DNA from: Lachnospiraceae bacterium | GTDB taxonomy: Bacteria > Bacillota > Clostridia > Lachnospirales > Lachnospiraceae | Direction: 5' to 3' | Assembly (NCBI GenBank): GCA_910574195.1 | Contig: CAJTBF010000004.1 | Location: 62,001-126,000, forward strand | DNA: 64,000 nucleotides | Part shown: positions 25,190-38,438 of the stretch, in pieces | How the letters are laid out: each line of letters opens with the position of its first letter | Numbering within the stretch: the first letter of the stretch is position 1 | The notes under the pieces: generated by a model | Database searches by the model: none | Told to the model about the DNA's origin: nothing | The model's input: the letters and a program-made list of their open reading frames with translations, nothing else | Program-made: the position numbers and the translations under genes

Positions 25190-26692
25190 TTAATATTGGA
25201 AATAAATAAACGGACTGTAAGTAGAATTAATCATAAACAGGACTGCAATTATAAAAAGAGACAGCAATCCAACCTCCTGTATCAAAAATCCTGCCTTTTT
25301 CCCGGAAAATCTCTCATACCATCTCTGTATTCCCGCGTTTCCCGGCAAGACCGCCCCCGCTGCTCCAATAACCGCCAGCGTAATGATCTGCGCGTCAAAA
25401 TAGTATCTCCAGGAAAAATAAATATGCTGCTGACGAAACGCTCCAAACATCAATTTCAGCCATTCCAACGATCCGGAAAACGATGGGAAACGGAAAAACT
25501 GCCAGCAGAAAAATGTAACCAGCATCGTGACAAACCACTTGCATACCGCCGGTTGTTTCTGATAAAATTTTTTCTCTTTCAGGAGACGCTCCAATATTAC
25601 CATCGCACCGTTGATTCCGCCCCAGAGAAGATAATTCCATCCGGCGCCATGCCATATCCCCGTTACAGCAAACACCACGGCTACATTACAGATGGTCCGG
25701 CGTTCTCCCCTCCGGCTTCCTCCAAGGGGAAAATAAATATATTCGCGGAACCATCGGCCCAGAGAAATATGCCAGCGTCTCCAGAATTCTGTAATGGATG
25801 TGGAGCGATACGGGAATCGAAAATTCTCCTGAAACTCGAATCCCAATAACCTTGCAAGTCCAATCGCAATGTCCGAATAACCCGAAAAGTCATAATAAAT
25901 CTGCAGCATATACAAAAACGCGATTCCCCAGCCTGTCATCACATCTGTTCCACTGACGGACACCCTGCTGATACAAAGTCCAAACTGATCCGCTAAAATC
26001 AATTTTTTGGCGAACCCGATCATCACCCGGTTTAAACCGGATACAACACCTTCACTCGTAACCACCCGTTTCTCAAGCATCGGGGCAAAATCTTTCCATA
26101 ATACAATCGGTCCTGAAATCACTTTAGGGAAGAAAGAGAGGTAAAGCATACAGTCGATAAAACTCCCCCCCCTGGTATCTCCACGGTAAATATCTACTAA
26201 ATAGGATATGGCAGAAAACGTAATAAAAGAAATACCCACAGGCGCCAGAATGGATTCTTTCACCAGGGTATCTCTTAATAAGTAATTCCAAATCGTCGTT
26301 AGTAACGACGCATATTTAAAGTGAATCAGACAAAACAGGATGAGTGAAACTGCAAAAAATAAAAGAAACGCAGATACGCGAATCTTTTTATAAACACGAT
26401 TTTCCTCTTCTTTTTTCTGTTCAAATACGGTCACATAAAATCTGCTGTTATAATGAATACAGCATCCTGCTATCCAGACTCCCAGCATATAAATCAGGAG
26501 TTTTATCACATCGTCAAAGCAGGCTCACATGTAAAACAACAGGCTCATTGCGATTAAACTCAAATCCTTGATCCGGAATTTAGCTAAAAAAGGATAGAAG
26601 ATCTTTCTTCGTTCCATTATATCGATACCGAAAAATATAAGTACCGTAATCGGAAAAAAGACAAATAGAAATATGGGGGTGGTGAAATTCAT
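25190..26692 (-). pseudogene. MBOAT O-acyltransferase (AlgI/DltB-like), interrupted by an in-frame TGA
   Basis: A 500-codon AlgI-type gene from the ATG at 26692 (GGAGA upstream). The N-terminus reads MNFTTPIFLFVFFPITVLIF, then SLLFYM, then TGA at 26525-26527 (codon 56), then ACFDDVIKLLIYML. AlgI-family proteins have Trp at this place (SLFFYAW), so this looks like TGG to TGA. The rest is intact with about ten membrane segments, FRFPYRSTSITEFWRRWHIS and the catalytic His in TGIWHGAGWNYLLWGG. Translation could restart at a GTG (26509), losing the first two helices. An in-frame G8 tract lies at 26165-26172. MBOATs move acyl groups across the membrane for polymer acylation. Confidence 0.88.
26165..26172 (-). 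repeat. Poly-G tract (G8) within the MBOAT gene, in frame
   Basis: Eight consecutive C on the plus strand, read as AGG GGG GGG AGT (Arg-Gly-Gly-Ser) in the MBOAT frame. One of only three runs of seven or more G/C in the window. Confidence 0.9.
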
Positions 26693-26763
26693 AACTGTTC
26701 TCCATTCTACTATTATCTTTAACTGATTTCTTCTGTCATTATTGTAAAATTATAAAAAGTCCC

Positions 26764-27885
26764 CTATCTTTTTGTATATCCAAATTCAAGAATATCCGCT
26801 ATTCTGGCACTTGCCAATCCATCGCCGTAGGGATTGGACGCATGAGCCATAGCATTGTATGCATTACCGTCATCAAGCAGTTCTGTAAATGCAGAATAAA
26901 TCGTCTTTTCATCCGTCCCCACAAGTTTTAAGGTTCCCGCTTCGATTCCTTCCGGTCTCTCTGTTGTATCCCGCATAACCAGAACCGGCTTTCCCAGAGA
27001 CGGAGCTTCCTCCTGAATTCCACCGGAATCCGTGAGAATCAAATGACTTGCTTTCATAAAATTATGAAAATCCAGCACTTCCAATGGCTCTATCAGATGA
27101 ATCCGCTTCTCATCCTCAAAGACAGATCGTGCCATTTCCCGAACAACCGGGTTAAGATGAATCGGATAAATCGCTTTCACATCCTTATGTTCCTCCAACA
27201 CCTGCTTAATCGCCCGGAACATATGCCGCATCGGTTCCCCCAGATTTTCCCGCCTGTGCGCGGTAATCAGAATCAACCTGGAGTCTGCCGCCCAAACAAG
27301 TTCCGGATGCGTATAATCTTCCCGTACCGTTGTCTTCAAGGCATCTATGGCCGTATTCCCTGTCACAAAAATCGTATCTTCTTTCTTCCCTTCCCGGAGA
27401 AGGTTTTCACGGCTGATTCGTGTCGGAGCAAAATTATACAAAGAAATAGTCCCTACCGCTTCCCGATTGAACTCTTCCGGATAGGGACTATAAATATTAT
27501 AAGTTCTAAGTCCGGCTTCCACATGACCGACCGGAATTTGAAGATAGAACGCTGCAAGCGCCGTCGCAAATGTGGTACTTGTATCTCCATGAACAAGAAC
27601 CACATCCGGCTGTACTTTCTCCAATACTGGTTTTATATTCATCAGAACCGATGTAGTAATATCAAACAACGTCTGCTTGTCCTTCATAATAGAAAGATCA
27701 TAATCCGGAATCACATCAAACGCTCTCAACACCTGGTCTAACATCATTCTATGCTGCCCGGTGACACAGACTATGGTTTGGATTCCCGGTCTGGATTGTA
27801 ATTCTTTTACAAGCGGACACATTTTTATTGCTTCCGGTCTTGTGCCAAAAACCAACATCACCCTTTTTCTCTTATTCTGTCGCAT
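26764..27885 (-). CDS. wecB: UDP-N-acetylglucosamine 2-epimerase (non-hydrolysing)
   Basis: 373 aa, the standard length. It has the N-terminal VMLVFGTRPEAIKMCPLV, VHGDTSTTFATALAAFY, GHVEAGLRTYNIYSPYPEEF, the UDP-binding TAHRRENLGEPM, and SDSGGIQEEAPSLGKPVLVM. This is the WecB/MnaA form, which interconverts UDP-GlcNAc and UDP-ManNAc, not the hydrolysing NeuC/LegG form. With wecC in the same locus it would supply UDP-ManNAcA for the polymer. AGAGGG precedes the ATG. Confidence 0.96.
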   Translation of the reverse strand: MRQNKRKRVMLVFGTRPEAIKMCPLVKELQSRPGIQTIVCVTGQHRMMLDQVLRAFDVIPDYDLSIMKDKQTLFDITTSVLMNIKPVLEKVQPDVVLVHGDTSTTFATALAAFYLQIPVGHVEAGLRTYNIYSPYPEEFNREAVGTISLYNFAPTRISRENLLREGKKEDTIFVTGNTAIDALKTTVREDYTHPELVWAADSRLILITAHRRENLGEPMRHMFRAIKQVLEEHKDVKAIYPIHLNPVVREMARSVFEDEKRIHLIEPLEVLDFHNFMKASHLILTDSGGIQEEAPSLGKPVLVMRDTTERPEGIEAGTLKLVGTDEKTIYSAFTELLDDGNAYNAMAHASNPYGDGLASARIADILEFGYTKR

Positions 27886-27972
27886 CTTTCCCTCTATTCC
27901 TTTCGCTTTTTATTAACTGAAAAACAACAAAAATGGTTTTCTTCTTCCAATCTTTTTCCCCTGTTTAAATAT

Positions 27973-28884
27973 TTAATCGGTTTCTACCGCGTACAACACC
28001 GTTTCTGTCCATGTTCTTGCATAATGCCTGACATAAAGTTTATAAAACGGATAATTTCTCCGGAAGAATTCAATCAGGCCAAGCATCTGCTCGTTTGTAT
28101 GATACATGCAAACCGCCACTGTGGGATGATGATTCATTATTGTTTCTTTTGCTCCCTCTAATGCCTCAAGTTCCGCGCCTTCTATGTCCATTTTAATAAA
28201 ACTGACCGCTCCCAGTCCGGAAGCGATTTCATCAATTGGCGCCGCCTGAACACGCACGCCGCCCCTCTCATCTATTTTGCTTGCATAATCCACTCCCCCG
28301 TCAAATGATAATTCTGTATTCTCCTTCCATGCAGCTTTTTTTACAATACGATATAAAAATCCGGAGTGCCTTGCCGCAATCGCAGACAATGTCTTTTCTA
28401 ATTTTATCATGTTATATTCATCCGGCTCCCAGCAGCATAACTGCAGCGACGCTCCTTTTTCGTCCCAGTTTGTCCACTTCTTCTCCAACAATAATGCTGT
28501 GTCTCCAGTAAATGCACCGCAGTCTATCAGAATTTCATTTTTCTTAAACCGTACGATTTGGGGATCGAAATATTTCTCTTCCATCGGACTTGTATACGAT
28601 AAATATTTTCGTTTCAGCGAGCACCTGTATTTTATTGCATTCAGATACACACGCTTACTTTTTTCATCCGCAAAACTTTTTACGTTCTTCTTTATGCGAA
28701 CTCGATTTTCTGTATAAAAATTACGTGTTTCCCGAAGCCTAGCCTGATTCGTATGCCTTTCCAGAAAGTCAATACACACATTAAATATTTCCGTATCTAT
28801 CAGCCATGTGATAAACCGTATCACAAATTCCAGGTGTCTGCTTCGCTGGAGCTTTCTCCAAACTGTAATCATTTTTTCTCTCAT
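27973..28884 (-). CDS. FkbM-family methyltransferase
   Basis: 303 aa from the ATG at 28884, which has GGAG six nt upstream; an open frame to 28920 lacks that. The SAM-binding core is ILIDCGAFTGDTALLLEKKW, followed by ELSFDGGVDYASKI and VSFIKMDIEGAELEALEGAK, the FkbM signature. The preceding 100 residues are a helical N-terminal region frequently seen in polysaccharide-locus members. It probably O-methylates a sugar of the surface polymer. The acceptor is unknown. Confidence 0.88.
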   Translation of the reverse strand: MREKMITVWRKLQRSRHLEFVIRFITWLIDTEIFNVCIDFLERHTNQARLRETRNFYTENRVRIKKNVKSFADEKSKRVYLNAIKYRCSLKRKYLSYTSPMEEKYFDPQIVRFKKNEILIDCGAFTGDTALLLEKKWTNWDEKGASLQLCCWEPDEYNMIKLEKTLSAIAARHSGFLYRIVKKAAWKENTELSFDGGVDYASKIDERGGVRVQAAPIDEIASGLGAVSFIKMDIEGAELEALEGAKETIMNHHPTVAVCMYHTNEQMLGLIEFFRRNYPFYKLYVRHYARTWTETVLYAVETD

Positions 28885-28989
28885 AAAAATCTCCATTCCG
28901 CTGCCAGGCCGACGGCACAAATAGTAATGAAACCTTTATAATTTCACACTAAGTTCTCCTATCCCTCTGCCCAGTGCTTTCAAATTTTT

Positions 28990-29087
28990 GTAACTATATA
29001 GCCCAGGGCTAAACAGTTACGGAATCCGGCCTGTTGAAGTTTGCCTTACGGCAAAGAGGATGTAAGTGAAGTAAATCGCATCCTCCC
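28990..29087. repeat. Cluster of three intergenic hairpins inside the polysaccharide operon
   Basis: From left: GTAACT/AGTTAC (28990-29020) enclosing AGCCC/GGGCT; TTTGCC/GGCAAA (about 29040-29056); and GAGGATG/CATCCTC (about 29057-29087). They fill the gap between the methyltransferase and the UbiA-type gene. No clear T-run follows any of them, so they may be pausing or processing structures. The first belongs to the GTAACWGTT hairpin family. Confidence 0.65.
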
Positions 29088-29096
29088 TGTCATCCG

Positions 29097-29941
29097 TCAG
29101 ATTATATCCACCATAAAACTCATCACAAACAGCCCCGCTAATACAAGCAGAACCCAACTATGTAAAATGATAATAATGGGATCTCCTGTATCTGACTTGC
29201 TCACCTCATACATATATTCCAACGCCATAATAATCCCGATCGTAGAGGCTATATAAGGAAAATATCCATTCATCCGTCCGCCTCCGATTTCGATTGTCCA
29301 TAGCACGAAAAAAATCACTCCGGAAATAAGTGTCAGCATGGCACACATGGAAAGATATGTTTCTGAATAAAGTTTGAACACATCCCGGTACGATGTGTTC
29401 AAAAGGAATTCTTTTTTTCTTTTTTCTATGGAAATATAAAGTGAAATCATCAGTACCGTAAGAAAAAGCCAGATAGACACCTTCGTACCGGACAGGATGG
29501 ATCCGTAAAAAAGGCGAAGCAGATATCCAGACGACACAATCAGAATATCTAATAAAGGCCTGTCCTTGAAACGAAAAACACTGTATCCGATATTACTCAG
29601 AATATAAATACCGAGTACAAAATAAAGCTGTATAGCGCTCCCGTCTTTCCCTCTCGAGATAAGCTCATTTAACACCCCCCCCCTACTGCAAGGACAATGC
29701 CTCCTGCAATACAGGCCTGCTTTTTCGTAATTGCACCGGAAGCAATCGGCCGTCGCTTTTTGATGGGATGCAGTTTATCTTTATCTGCATCGTATATATC
29801 ATTTATAATGTACACAAACGATGCCGCGAATCCGAAAGATATCCCTCCCAGCAATAGCCATTTCAGATCCGAAACCGTCCGGATCTCCTGGCCGAAAAAA
29901 GCCGGAAGAAAAATGATCAGATTCTTAATCCAATGTTTCAA
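29097..29941 (-). pseudogene. UbiA-type prenyltransferase (decaprenyl-P phosphoribosyltransferase-like), frameshifted at G9
   Basis: Two frames together make one membrane protein. The first (29669-29941) has KHWIKNLIIFLPAFFGQE and the Mg-diphosphate motif NDIYDADKDKLHPIKKRRPI, then ends after VGGGC. The second (29097-29675) continues NELISRGKDG through about six membrane helices with the second aspartate motif. They meet at a run of nine G (29675-29683); ten or seven G would fuse them. UbiA enzymes of this group transfer phosphoribose to a polyprenyl phosphate, giving lipid-linked pentose donors. Similarity continues 5' of the TTG at 29941 to about 29971 (KEYIRLCRL) but without an ATG, GTG or TTG there. 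Confidence 0.88.
29675..29683 (-). repeat. Poly-G tract (G9) breaking the UbiA-type gene
   Basis: Nine C on the plus strand. Read as GTA GGG GGG GGG TGT TAA it gives a stop; with G10 it reads on as GTG TTA AAT GAG into the rest of the protein. Longest homopolymeric G/C run in the window. Confidence 0.93.
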
Positions 29942-37294: not shown

Positions 37295-38366
37295 TCAATA
37301 TTTTGCTATTCTCCCGGCAGTTCTTTCGAACATCAATTTTGCTTTCCTTCCAATATGCAGTCTTTCAAACAACCAGTTCCGAAGATACTCTATCGTTCCA
37401 CAGATCATATATAGAACCACCGCTGTTATAATAATGGTTATGATACTTACAACTGCATTCAATTCTGCGATCCACCCAAAAGCATTGACAAATACATGAT
37501 TTCGTATCACAATCTGCGAGTGTATCAAAAATACACCAAATGATACACCACTTAACATTTTTATGATATTTTGTATCCTTTGATTTTTTATTTCTATTTT
37601 GGAAAAAGCAGCCATCAGCATAATCGCATTCAGCAGTATCGTGGGAGACGTATATTTTACAAACATATTACTAAATGGAATTAGCGATTCTATTTTTATA
37701 CTTTCTATTACAAACCTTATCAGCCATGAAAAAGTAACACCTGATAAATAAATCACAATTGCTTTCTTAGTTCCTGTATTCGAAAACAGGCCGCATTTTT
37801 TCATCAATCCGCCTACCATATAAAGCAGTAATATCCATATAAATGAATAACCGTCCAGCATATTCATCGGATCTTTGCCTGTAAAGGTCGTCCATGCCGA
37901 ACAAAATAAAAAGATGACCAGAAAACAGTTTTTCGCTGTTTTTGGATTCATCCCATTCACCGCCGCATTCATATAAGGCATAAACAAAAAAGTTCCAAAA
38001 TAGGAAGTAAAATATTTCCACTCACAAAAAGTAGTGGGAAACATGGATATAATTAATTCTTCCCGTGTAATATCAATTCCTGCTATAAAAACACATATCA
38101 ACGTAATAAGAACTGAATAAAAGAATACCTGCAGCCACCGGAGAAACACTTTATAATATTCACATTTCCGGTCTGCCATTAAGTAACCTGTAGTGATTGC
38201 AAAAACATTCACCGCACAATAACACATTACTTCCAAATATCCATGCAATTCATATCCTAATGATAATATTTCTTTGTTTTGCCCCCCCAATCCCTAAAAC
38301 GTGCAATACTAACACCATATGCATGGCGATTACTTTCAGCAAGTCAATCCCATAATTTCTCTTCAT
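37295..38366 (-). pseudogene. Acyltransferase-3 family membrane protein, frameshifted at G7
   Basis: The N-terminal part begins at the ATG 38366 (GGGGGA upstream) as MKRNYGIDLLKVIAMHMVLV then LHVLGIGG, the first helix of an acyltransferase-3 (OafA-like) protein with the family His. It runs out of frame at G7 (38282-38288) and stops at about 38250. The rest (37295-38290) continues in another frame as GGQNKEILSLGYEL followed by about nine helices. Six or nine G would join them into about 357 residues. These enzymes O-acetylate exopolysaccharides from the membrane. Confidence 0.88.
38282..38288 (-). repeat. Poly-G tract (G7) breaking the acyltransferase gene
   Basis: Seven C on the plus strand. 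The frame ATT GGG GGG GCA AAA ends about 14 codons later; ATT GGG GGG CAA AAC, with one G fewer, joins the remaining open frame. Confidence 0.92.
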
Positions 38367-38438
38367 AAAGATCATTCCCCCATCCAAAATACAATTCGTA
38401 TGAAGCTTTCTTATACGAACCTGCACAACAATCATTTT

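Follow-up and report, generated by a model that had tools for sequence, protein, structure and literature searches.

A 64,000-nucleotide stretch of the genome of a Lachnospiraceae bacterium (GenBank assembly GCA_910574195.1, contig CAJTBF010000004.1, positions 62,001 to 126,000; hereafter the window) carries three poly-G runs inside genes of one polysaccharide biosynthesis locus. Considering these runs together with those elsewhere in the genome and in its congeners, we regard slipped-strand phase variation of surface polysaccharides, acting throughout the genus and wider than a three-gene switch, as the best reading and a rather probable one. The reading starts from what is observed, namely the runs, the frame changes at them, the classes of the genes that contain them, and the differing positions and lengths of runs in related genes. 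In its broadest form, which we hold with slightly more confidence than doubt, a probable clostridial gut genus would carry short poly-G switches genome-wide, some within polysaccharide genes and others in the promoter spacers of surface-protein genes. Runs would keep arising at unrelated sites of the same gene families, giving several independent switches per genome, perhaps ten or more. The window bacterium itself probably inhabits the gut.

Exactly three G/C runs of at least seven bases occur in the window: a G8 at 26165-26172, a G9 at 29675-29683 and a G7 at 38282-38288. A run search of all 64,000 bases thereby bore out the positions and lengths given in a first-pass annotation of this DNA. 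All three are intragenic, and in each the G residues lie on the minus strand, on which the host gene is encoded; Pfam names these genes as MBOAT, UbiA and Acyl_transf_3. The UbiA-type gene (29097-29941, minus strand) changes frame at the G9, with 29669-29941 before the run and 29097-29675 after it. Its first half matches PF01040 (E = 2.9e-14) and its second half alone has no Pfam match; both align to the same intact open reading frames (ORFs) in four other genomes (L055-L058). Over residues 15-288, the intact L055 matches PDB entry 8j8j, a decaprenyl-phosphate phosphoribosyltransferase (E = 8.4e-36), and the UbiA-type gene probably encodes a relative of polyprenyl-phosphate phosphoribosyltransferases within the UbiA superfamily.

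The acyltransferase-3 gene (37295-38375, minus strand) likewise changes frame at its G7: an N-terminal piece of ~30 codons runs from 38375 to the tract and is followed by 37295-38290. The main part matches PF01757 over profile positions 39-320 (E = 2.6e-11), and the N-terminal piece gives a weak match to positions 1-22 (E = 0.01, under the curated cut-off). A search for an orthologue with which to compare run lengths returned one of the 12 genus genomes, the window's own. In the MBOAT O-acyltransferase gene (25190-26692, minus strand; PF03062, E = 2.2e-26; ORF 25190-26509), the frame is open across the G8. The N-terminal part of this gene continues in the same frame up to an ATG at 26690-26692 but is severed by a TGA at 26525-26527, a site that reads TGG in L079, L060, L087 and a degraded copy on contig C15. 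Because this TGA lies upstream, an in-frame G8 is not enough for an active enzyme. As assembled, the UbiA-type and acyltransferase-3 genes are thus probably in the OFF frame and the MBOAT is probably inactive from another cause, its TGA, so that none of the three run-bearing genes looks fully active.

The run count lies close to chance expectation and was set aside as evidence. At the genome-wide rate, 0.9 runs of at least seven bases are expected per 64 kb (P(≥3) = 0.064) and 0.29 runs of at least eight (P(≥2) = 0.035), while Markov models of the window give, depending on their order, between 0.75 and 6 runs of at least seven. Unlike their number, the placement and frame of the runs are not chance-like. 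The window genome, an 80-contig draft, contains 38 G7, 13 G8 and 5 G9 runs and none longer, one G8 and one G9 of this count being a single locus assembled twice. The neighbourhood of every listed tract was inspected, and 28 of the 38 G7 and 11 of the 18 longer tracts were classed as coding; ten G7 and six longer tracts that were non-coding or doubtful were left out, as was the C15 duplicate. Polysaccharide genes hold 8 of the 11 longer coding tracts compared with 3 of the 28 coding G7 runs (Fisher p = 0.0003). That we assigned the gene classes after the data had been seen counts against the slippage reading. When DUF2142 and DUF7657 are counted as other, the longer tracts in polysaccharide genes fall to 6 of 11 (p = 0.008). 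The first-pass annotation had named equally long tracts in unrelated genes as an outcome that would speak against its proposal. At length seven this is what the genome-wide count found, 25 of the 28 coding runs lying in genes outside the polysaccharide class (three of the 25 without a family match); at G8-G9 it holds for three of the 11 coding tracts. Length seven alone therefore carries no signal, and we rejected it as a threshold.

In the window genome, frame changes at the run are confined to the polysaccharide class, in which they affect 4 of 11 tracts compared with 0 of the 28 other coding tracts (p = 0.004). The genes concerned are those of the UbiA-type protein, acyltransferase-3, a second MBOAT (C3:151478) and a DegT aminotransferase (C11:29181). 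The further polysaccharide clusters that hold tracts contain genes whose names were read from sequence: dTDP-rhamnose and ABC-exporter-type genes at 195-232 kb of C3, GDP-mannose/fucose-type genes at 142-162 kb of C3, and NeuB/NeuC/NeuA-like genes on C11. The view that only genes decorating the polymer are involved does not extend beyond the window, as tracts elsewhere fall in an aminotransferase, a nucleotidyltransferase/aminotransferase and large membrane proteins. The earlier proposal of multi-switch phase variation gains from the frame changes and the concentration of longer runs, as well as from the unrelated run sites and a doubled stretch described below. Its figure of eight surface states, however, is a wrong count, because tracts extend beyond this operon and its three genes.

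Within gene families, the runs change position. Seven run-bearing MBOATs from the window genome, congener G006 and the named records L087 and L092 carry the run at seven different sites of the alignment, and the two nearest relatives of the window MBOAT (L079 and L060) have no run. The closest named relatives of this MBOAT come from ‘Lachnospiraceae bacterium isolate A75_68.CO.DSS’ (70%) and ‘Dorea sp. 5-2’ (66%), which points to Lachnospiraceae as the probable family. In the second MBOAT on C3 the frame changes exactly at the run; used as a DNA query against the congeners, this gene returned partial, distant matches. UbiA orthologues were found in 7 of 98 genomes and, within the genus, only in the window genome and congener G007, whose homologue changes frame at a G9 located at another protein site than in the window. 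Near it, an acyltransferase-3 gene of G007 also changes frame at a G9, its halves covering profile positions 2-93 and 104-324.

A similar picture emerges from G006, a 3-contig assembly with 39 tracts of at least eight bases. By eye, five of its genes change frame at a tract, encoding an acyltransferase-3, a methyltransferase, a GT2 glycosyltransferase, a large membrane protein and a LuxR-type regulator. Its in-frame tracts include two MBOATs, an acyltransferase-3, a GT1 and a hexapeptide transferase, and several of its tract genes have no family match. Where orthologous tracts of congeners could be paired (at least eight bases in both, spanned by the alignment), three of four pairs differ in length. 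Two of these three are solute-binding proteins, with one copy in frame and the other not.

Other tracts are intergenic and occupy a promoter-like position. In five cases an exact TTGACA and a -10-like box, 17-19 bases apart, flank the tract; three of these tracts belong to the genus (two in G006, one in G009) and two to another genus of the family (G109). Each precedes an ORF of at least 384 codons, and the products resemble a LytR-CpsA-Psr protein, a lipoprotein and secreted proteins, the signals having been judged by eye. This layout resembles that of porA in Neisseria, where a poly-G run forms the promoter spacer. In all, such box pairs flank 7 of 121 tracts of at least eight bases, two of the seven inside ORFs, compared with 43 of 10,265 G3-G5 runs. 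In the loci compared, the dinucleotide TA follows 26 of 60 runs of at least nine bases (43%) but only 5-9% of G3-G8 runs; -10 boxes directly after intergenic runs account for only part of the excess. This excess, together with an identical 20-base stretch in MBOATs L087 and L092, hinted at a mobile or inserted G-run element, a candidate not supported by the MBOAT alignment, which shows no insertion there. Runs of at least ten bases occur at least once in 66 of 200 family genomes and are lacking in the window genome, so long runs are patchily distributed in the family.

Several observations weigh against slipped-strand switching. Tracts are present in ordinary genes as well, and in G006 in-frame tracts also lie in two solute-binding proteins, a histidine kinase and an AraC regulator. 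When frame changes are split by tract length only, the difference does not reach significance (3 of 11 longer versus 1 of 28 G7 tracts, p = 0.06). Further points would suit ordinary one-way decay, in which fast-evolving polysaccharide genes are being lost and the G runs act as frameshift hotspots, an account we consider unlikely though deserving of some weight. The window MBOAT itself carries its TGA. On C15, at ~93.3-94.2 kb (L239:8271-9231), a degraded second copy corresponds to the window MBOAT and the start of the next gene at 88-92% identity, with large deletions and a G6 where the window has its G8. A MBOAT-like gene on C11 (L238:7390-8600) changes frame in a stretch that contains no G/C run of six or more, which slightly lowers our confidence in the slippage reading. 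Given these three cases, MBOAT genes of the window genome also decay by routes that do not involve runs. Furthermore, MutS1 and MutL are present at full length. Intact mismatch repair fits decay and means that slippage of runs of 7-9 G may be slow; a loss of mismatch repair, which we had considered, was rejected on the same grounds. Decay accounts less well for the window cluster, where the two frame changes found both coincide with runs and the other genes are open. Nor does it readily explain the recurrence of runs at new sites within families or the existence of an intact run-bearing MBOAT (C3:148455).

The DegT aminotransferase gene bears on a second alternative, namely that homopolymer miscalls in sequencing or assembly created the frame changes and the doubling of a stretch of this gene. 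The two halves of this gene on either side of the run match the profile at 6-105 and 128-271. The stretch was assembled twice, once at the end of contig C15, with its tract at C15:101925, and once on C11 up to a one-N gap, and 578 of 579 aligned bases are identical; the sole difference is one G in the run, and both versions are out of frame. The edges of the match coincide with the contig end and the gap, as would be expected if one locus had been assembled twice and not if there were two genes. The extra G may mean that the culture held both lengths, or it may be a consensus error. The draft state of the assembly and the position of this doubling, next to a contig end and a one-base gap, would suit an artefact, and PMC9187656 cautions about G-tract lengths in databases. 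Random miscalls, however, would not spare all 28 coding tracts outside polysaccharide genes, and G006 and G007 independently show the same pattern, which makes error an improbable source of the frame changes. Programmed ribosomal or transcriptional slippage, by which an out-of-frame gene would still yield some full-length protein, is very improbable: a stretch of 7-9 identical bases may be slippery, but a conserved site would be expected, whereas seven MBOATs have seven sites and two UbiAs have two, and orthologous tracts differ in length.

We therefore return to slipped-strand phase variation, for which the features that mark simple sequence repeat systems are found here: a homopolymer in the gene (or, in relatives only, in the promoter spacer), a run that sets the frame, and surface-related genes. 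The G runs would act as contingency loci that gain or lose G residues during replication through slipped-strand mispairing. Within a gene, a change in length would shift the frame and switch the enzyme on or off. In a run that separates a -35 from a -10 box, as in the relatives but not the window, it would alter promoter spacing. With the longer runs mainly in surface polysaccharide genes of the window genome and its congeners, a clonal population could come to contain many surface variants. The gene types potentially switched include O-acyltransferases, a lipid-phosphoribose synthase-like enzyme, a sugar aminotransferase, a glycosyltransferase and a methyltransferase. We infer slippage as the cause, and with it reversibility and a phenotype.

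The mechanism is of an already known kind. According to PMC4965091, Campylobacter jejuni NCTC11168 has 29 loci with G/C tracts of seven or more. Its capsule and lipooligosaccharide systems share with the window genome intragenic G/C homopolymers, surface-glycan genes and several loci per genome, but belong to another phylum; in the window genome, tracts reach nine bases at most, mismatch repair genes are present and the case is built from sequence. For Neisseria, which differs in being Gram-negative, PMC9187656 cites intragenic G-tracts in glycosyltransferase and acetylase genes. The same paper describes a Bifidobacterium breve pilus locus in which a G-tract splits a surface-structure gene into two ORFs and its length, followed by deep sequencing, sets expression. 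This gut commensal offers a close parallel, a homopolymeric G-tract in a surface-structure gene, but it is an actinobacterium and pilus genes are affected, whereas here polysaccharide genes of a probable clostridial family are concerned and the support is genomic only. Within the Firmicutes, a review (PMC11868660) reports poly-C tract variation from 8C to 7C in mga of Streptococcus pyogenes, again homopolymer-length variation of a surface-related gene, but in a single regulator and not a set of polysaccharide genes. For Clostridioides difficile the same review describes invertible promoters, which represent phase variation in the class Clostridia by site-specific inversion rather than slippage. 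The literature searched, which mostly did not cover subscription journals, yielded no account of poly-G phase variation in Lachnospiraceae.

If slipped-strand switching is confirmed, it would provide clonal, random surface-polysaccharide variation in a group of Gram-positive gut bacteria, with a bearing on phage sensitivity, immune recognition and strain typing. Genomes of this group would then include OFF alleles that look like pseudogenes, and the system would be a slippage-based counterpart of promoter inversion, the mechanism usually cited for gut bacteria. That runs recur at different sites of one gene family would amount to a natural experiment on switch evolution.

The polysaccharide biosynthesis locus of the window (23760-46715, minus strand) comprises 19 genes, including the three with runs, as delineated from ORFs and Pfam searches of ten proteins; the matches of these ten include Epimerase_2, Glycos_transf_2, Polysacc_synt_3, FkbM methyltransferase and ALGX. 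All 19 genes lie on the minus strand and overlap or are separated by gaps of at most 176 bases (the upstream ends of the MBOAT and acyltransferase-3 genes being approximate), and for this reason a single operon is plausible. The first-pass annotation had placed all three runs inside the coding sequence of one operon; their location inside genes stands, and the operon is a plausible prediction from strand and gaps.

Some tracts merit separate mention. Neighbouring G and C runs of 11-18 bases in opposite directions are found in G054 (L210) and G107 (L212) and are perhaps assembly artefacts. On C19 of the window genome, a LarC-type nickel insertion gene (PF01969; L013:2003-3412) contains an in-frame G8. 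In G006 (L149), a NeuB-GNAT gene stops just after a G8, and the next frame, for a formyltransferase, opens at the run with no clear start codon. In G008, a protein that by eye resembles a phage tail fibre (L180:947-2259) carries a G11 run and changes frame there.

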